From contig WHTU01000003.1 in NCBI GenBank assembly GCA_009377575.1, forward strand, positions 1 through 64,000: a stretch of DNA of 64,000 bases, written 5' to 3'. Origin of the DNA: Nitrososphaeraceae archaeon (lineage in GTDB: Archaea; Thermoproteota; Nitrososphaeria; Nitrososphaerales; Nitrososphaeraceae). The notes under the pieces are model-generated. The model saw only the letters and a list, made by a program, of their open reading frames with translations. It did no database searches and was not told the origin of the DNA. Positions within the stretch are counted from its first letter, which is position 1, and every line of letters begins with the position of its first letter. A program made the translations under genes and the position numbers. Of this stretch, positions 51,515 to 52,166 are shown piece after piece.

Positions 51515-51629
51515 TGCGGGAGGTGGGATTTGAACCCACGGACCCCTTAGGGATGAGGTATCCCCGCCACATGGATCTGAGCGTCGTGCCAACGGTCTCA
51601 CGCCTTTGGCCATGCTTGGCAACTCCCGC
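51515..51629 (-). tRNA. tRNA-Leu (anticodon CAG), with two apparent introns
   Basis: Acceptor stem GCGGGAG / CTCCCGC, discriminator A (51515), D-arm GCC...GGC, a long variable arm and a T-arm GTGGG-TTCAAAT-CCCAC: a class II tRNA whose 5' half matches tRNA-Leu. The anticodon region is too long. Removing 51583-51596 (14 nt) and 51558-51573 (16 nt) leaves a perfect stem TGAGG/CCTCA and loop CTCAGAT, giving anticodon CAG with T33 and a mature length of about 85. The exact splice points are ambiguous by a base. Encodes no CCA. Confidence 0.85.
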
Positions 51630-52166
51630 GTTTGTTTCTCAATTGAATCAACTGAGATTTATATCCTGTCAATTCGATTCCTGATATCAGAGGTTATTTG
51701 TTTTCGAAGGCACACAGCTTCAGGTCGAGAATCGCCCAACCAGAGTAGAAGTAAGTTAAGAATTTTCCTTTACACTGTTGATGTTAGTACGCTTAAGATA
51801 ACGAATGAAGGTATGGGTCTTTGGATCTGATTAGATCATGTGGTACGAATCATGGCAACTTAAACAAGAAACAATTGATATGAATATTCCTCTATTCAGG
51901 ATCTAATCTTGCTGAAATTTCATTGTAGAATCAGCAATGGGAGGGCAGCGATTATGCCTTAATGCATCACTGTAAAAACTCCATAATTCAAGATATTTTT
52001 CTTTTACATAAGTACCTGCAAAAGAATGGCAAAGTAGAATTGCTATGCAGCCTCCAAATTATAAAAACTAGAAGCATTTCCTTAAACACAGCATAGAACA
52101 TTTGCGCTAGCATGCAGGACGTATTCAGGAACAAACTTAAATTCAATAGCTGACATTATCCTCATA
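51630..52166. other. Intergenic region, no gene seen
   Basis: About 540 bases between the tRNA-Leu 5' end and the hydrolase gene. No frame with coding character; no convincing RNA structure. Confidence 0.4.

Follow-up and report, generated by a model that had tools for sequence, protein, structure and literature searches.

This report concerns a transfer RNA (tRNA) gene on the reverse strand of a stretch of 64,000 nucleotides (nt) of contig WHTU01000003.1 (the window), from assembly GCA_009377575.1 of a soil ammonia-oxidising archaeon of the family Nitrososphaeraceae. The gene runs from 51629 to 51515. Judging from its own sequence and from those of its relatives, it is almost certainly a tRNA-Leu(CAG) gene with bulge-helix-bulge (BHB) introns at the non-canonical position 30/31 and the canonical position 37/38; no second Leu(CAG) copy was seen elsewhere in the assembly. 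All the parts that follow are read on the reverse strand. Exon 1 (51597..51629, GCGGGAGTTGCCAAGCATGGCCAAAGGCGTGAG) comprises 33 nt and corresponds to tRNA positions 1-30. Intron 1 (51583..51596, 14 nt, ACCGTTGGCACGAC) interrupts the gene at 30/31 and is missing from orthologues in several other families. Exon 2 (51576..51582) consists of the seven nucleotides GCTCAGA, which are positions 31-37, and carries the anticodon CAG at 51577-51579. Intron 2 (51560..51575, 16 nt, TCCATGTGGCGGGGAT) is assigned to 37/38. Exon 3 (51516..51559, 44 nt) provides positions 38-72 with the variable arm, the T arm and the acceptor strand, and the discriminator base A73 lies at 51515. Upstream, a TATA-like promoter element, ATATAAAT (51657..51664), ends 27 bases before G1; it is kept in 4/4 congeners, inside GGATATAAATCTCAG. 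The Rfam tRNA model scores 34.2 bits against the unspliced gene, across all 71 positions, the anticodon arm holding a long insertion.

The cloverleaf of this tRNA is intact only after intron removal, as judged by ARAGORN and by an exhaustive enumeration of possible joints. In its default mode, with introns off, ARAGORN called no tRNA in the window, in agreement with an earlier sequence-only reading which had noted that the unspliced anticodon region cannot fold into a normal arm. With one intron allowed, it miscalled the intact gene as tRNA-Trp(CCA) and gave it a 19-nt intron. After intron 1 had been taken out, the call was Leu(CAG) and the canonical intron measured 16 nt; with both introns taken out, it was again Leu(CAG). 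A single-intron model with a well-formed arm had been named in the sequence-only reading as one finding that would speak against two introns. It was sought by removing every single segment 8 nt or longer and asking for five stem pairs and U33, and zero models with both features were obtained. Four different sequences with a Leu anticodon came from removing two segments, and each has the joint TGAG|GCTCA. Apart from the placements of intron 2 discussed below, the enumeration holds two Leu joints, with the loops CTCAATA and CTCAGTA, which have no support among orthologues. As a side remark, automatic annotation could pass on the incorrect Trp(CCA) identity for 51515-51629.

The joints can be located by comparison with orthologues that lack one or both introns. 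Uninterrupted Leu(CAG) genes, 84 nt long, occur in other families of the order. One of them (L116) reads GGCGTGAGGCTCAGAACCTCATCCC and matches the predicted spliced sequence across the region; seven others (L112-L115, L117, L121 and L123) concur with it at the joints. In all eight, GCTCAGAACC is continuous, and at the second joint the intronless orthologues read CTCAGAACC. Furthermore, intron 2 alone is found at four loci (L120, L124, L138 and L155), and both introns are present at seven of the loci read outside the family (L140, L154, L156 and L160-L163). The second intron of L155, in genome G076, measures 67 nt, which is unusually long for 37/38 among the genes read.

Most features proposed in the sequence-only reading are recovered here: two introns, 14 and 16 nt long, the anticodon CAG (called by ARAGORN on the spliced sequence), a first intron at the non-canonical position 30/31, and a mature length of about 85, which is 84 nt, or 85 counting A73. 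The placement of the second intron differs. That reading had put both introns at non-canonical positions, near 30/31 and 39/40, around a nine-base middle exon, GCTCAGATC, so that the mature tRNA would carry U38. Such a model yields introns of 14 and 16 nt as well, and a perfect stem; even so, we consider it very improbable. In a comparative set of 71 genes (63 from the family, seven CAG genes from other families and one UAG gene; the counts are of sequences, most of them from one family, and not of independent events), the A directly 3′ of intron 2 is invariant (71/71), whereas the first base of the intron is variable (T in 42, A in 25, G in two and C in two). The intronless orthologues carry A38 as well, and a joint at 37/38 suits the position of the central BHB helix (32-35). 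By comparison with the orthologues, A38 is exonic and intron 2 canonical, which leaves intron 1 as the only non-canonical one. The middle exon, described as extremely short, is indeed so, with seven rather than nine nucleotides.

The arrangement of two introns around a minimal exon recurs throughout the family. A DNA search gave matches in 69 of 70 Nitrososphaeraceae genomes, and both introns are present in all Leu(CAG) genes read from the family (63/63). The exact two-intron pattern was found in 62/70 family genomes; most of those without a hit are incomplete, and in two the second intron exceeds the allowed length. It was found in none of 230 other sampled genomes of the order, a result that, the pattern being sequence-specific, is no proof that introns are absent there. 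A reversed control pattern gave 0/300 genomes. In a scan of named genomes, the carriers fall in Nitrososphaeraceae and related Nitrososphaeria. Within the comparative set, the introns vary in length (13-37 nt for intron 1 and 15-44 nt for intron 2) and in sequence (61 and 56 distinct sequences, respectively). Exon 2 reads GCTCAGA in 65 genes, GCTCAGG in five and GCTTAGA in the single UAG gene.

The tRNA-Leu(UAG) gene of the genome that holds the window (L170, G000:C111:167007-167086) likewise has two introns, flanking GCTTAGA. An exact pattern for a two-intron Leu(UAG) gene was found in 34/70 family genomes. The first BHB of this gene covaries with that of Leu(CAG), with CGCA/UGCG in place of CGUG/CACG. 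In the Leu(UAG) genes, the second intron, ending ...CCTACA or ...CCTAAA before ACCCTG, misfits a canonical central helix at 32-35.

The rival view that the gene has one intron and an unusual arm, such as the Trp(CCA) gene called by ARAGORN with its 19-nt intron, or is a decayed tRNA pseudogene deserves hardly any credence: no one-intron model reaches five pairs and U33, exon conservation is family-wide and extends to the 7-nt exon while the introns vary, and the assembly shows no other Leu(CAG) copy.

The sequence-only reading had suggested looking for BHB motifs, and the two introns differ in this respect. At the first, the intron bases CACG (51585..51588) pair with C25-G28 (51599-51602) in a central helix of four pairs, flanked by the three-base bulges AG|A and AC|G. 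This helix is paired in 71/71 sequences, with compensatory changes of U27-A or U27-G to C27-G and of G28-C to A28-U, and when the helix is shifted by one base 0-1% remain paired. At the second, the intron bases GGGG (51562..51565) would pair with C32-C34. All four central pairs are formed in 51/71 genes and at least three in 70/71, the gene in the window having three. A further candidate pairing, between the end of intron 2 and exon 3 (GGGAT/ATCCC), seems to be a side effect of the variable arm. Support for the BHB structures is comparative, and the folding energies of single sequences alone give none. As far as sequences can tell, the comparison establishes two introns, their boundaries, and the first BHB together with its conservation.

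Beyond this, we infer the expression of the gene, the order in which its introns are removed and the enzymes acting in this organism. In the proposed scheme, intron 1 would be the first target of the splicing endonuclease, at the BHB formed by C25-G28 of exon 1 and the intron bases CACG, and RtcB, whose gene is present, would ligate G30 and G31. Before this point the anticodon stem (27-31/39-43) could not close; once closed, it would provide the outer helix of BHB 2, where the end of intron 2 would pair with C32-A35 of the anticodon loop. Removal of intron 2 would finally release the 84-nt tRNA. Two considerations make it likely, in our models, that intron 1 is removed before intron 2. First, forcing BHB 1 in the full precursor has a median cost of 3.7 kcal/mol; the corresponding value is 14.4 kcal/mol for BHB 2 together with the anticodon stem, and 4.7 kcal/mol for BHB 2 after intron 1 removal. 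The direction of the energy difference is the same in 71/71 genes. Second, U27 and G28 are used by BHB 1, yet they are also needed in the outer helix of BHB 2. The predicted order agrees with the general description in PMC8450103.

Several observations weigh against a gene with two BHB introns that are removed in this way. The central helix of BHB 2 in the window has only 3/4 pairs, with A35 opposite G. The short BHB segments fold no better than shuffled ones (z 0.14 and 0.35), and the free minimum-energy fold of the precursor differs from the BHB form. Part of the energy difference behind the proposed order follows directly from the layout, in which intron 1 interrupts the outer helix that BHB 2 needs. 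Lastly, cutting at non-canonical sites would call for an endonuclease of the alpha2beta2 type, and a single PF01974 splicing-endonuclease gene was found in this 99% complete draft, against two in all 12 relatives compared, three congeners included; the single gene is probably due to an assembly gap.

Archaeal tRNA genes with two or three introns are known, some of them so close that removal must be sequential (PMC8450103). Non-canonical introns have already been reported in Thaumarchaeota (PMC8450103) and 30/31 is a listed non-canonical site (PMC4090602). The Leu(CAG) arrangement is a further example of this already described gene type, represented by multi-intron genes in Pyrobaculum, Thermofilum and Thaumarchaeota (PMC8450103, PMC3218864, PMC4090602). 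In contrast to those, its middle exon has only 7 nt and its layout is conserved across one whole family. In another archaeal lineage, tRNA-Thr(GGU) of Caldiarchaeum subterraneum also holds two introns in one gene (PMC3293823), at 24/25 and 45/46 instead of 30/31 and 37/38. The split tRNA-Lys(CUU) of Nanoarchaeum and Staphylothermus is broken at 30/31, like intron 1 here, and the tri-split tRNA-Gly of Caldivirga bears its anticodon on a short central fragment (26-37), like exon 2 (PMC4090602). However, these are joined in trans from separate genes, whereas Leu(CAG) is one gene. No published description of it was found in the literature accessible without most subscription journals; tRNA databases, which probably list the gene, were outside the search.

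For annotation, the gene is a case in which a simple intron-aware caller misassigns the amino acid, giving Trp for Leu. For the family, we tentatively suggest, while thinking it somewhat doubtful, that the family-wide 7-nt exon (loop bases 32-37 and one stem base) may rank with the shortest known internal tRNA exons, and that an obligate order of 30/31 before 37/38 may be a conserved Nitrososphaeraceae trait common to two leucine isoacceptors. Leu(CAG) orthologues without introns, with just the second and with the two together occur within one order and form a natural series for tRNA intron gain and loss.
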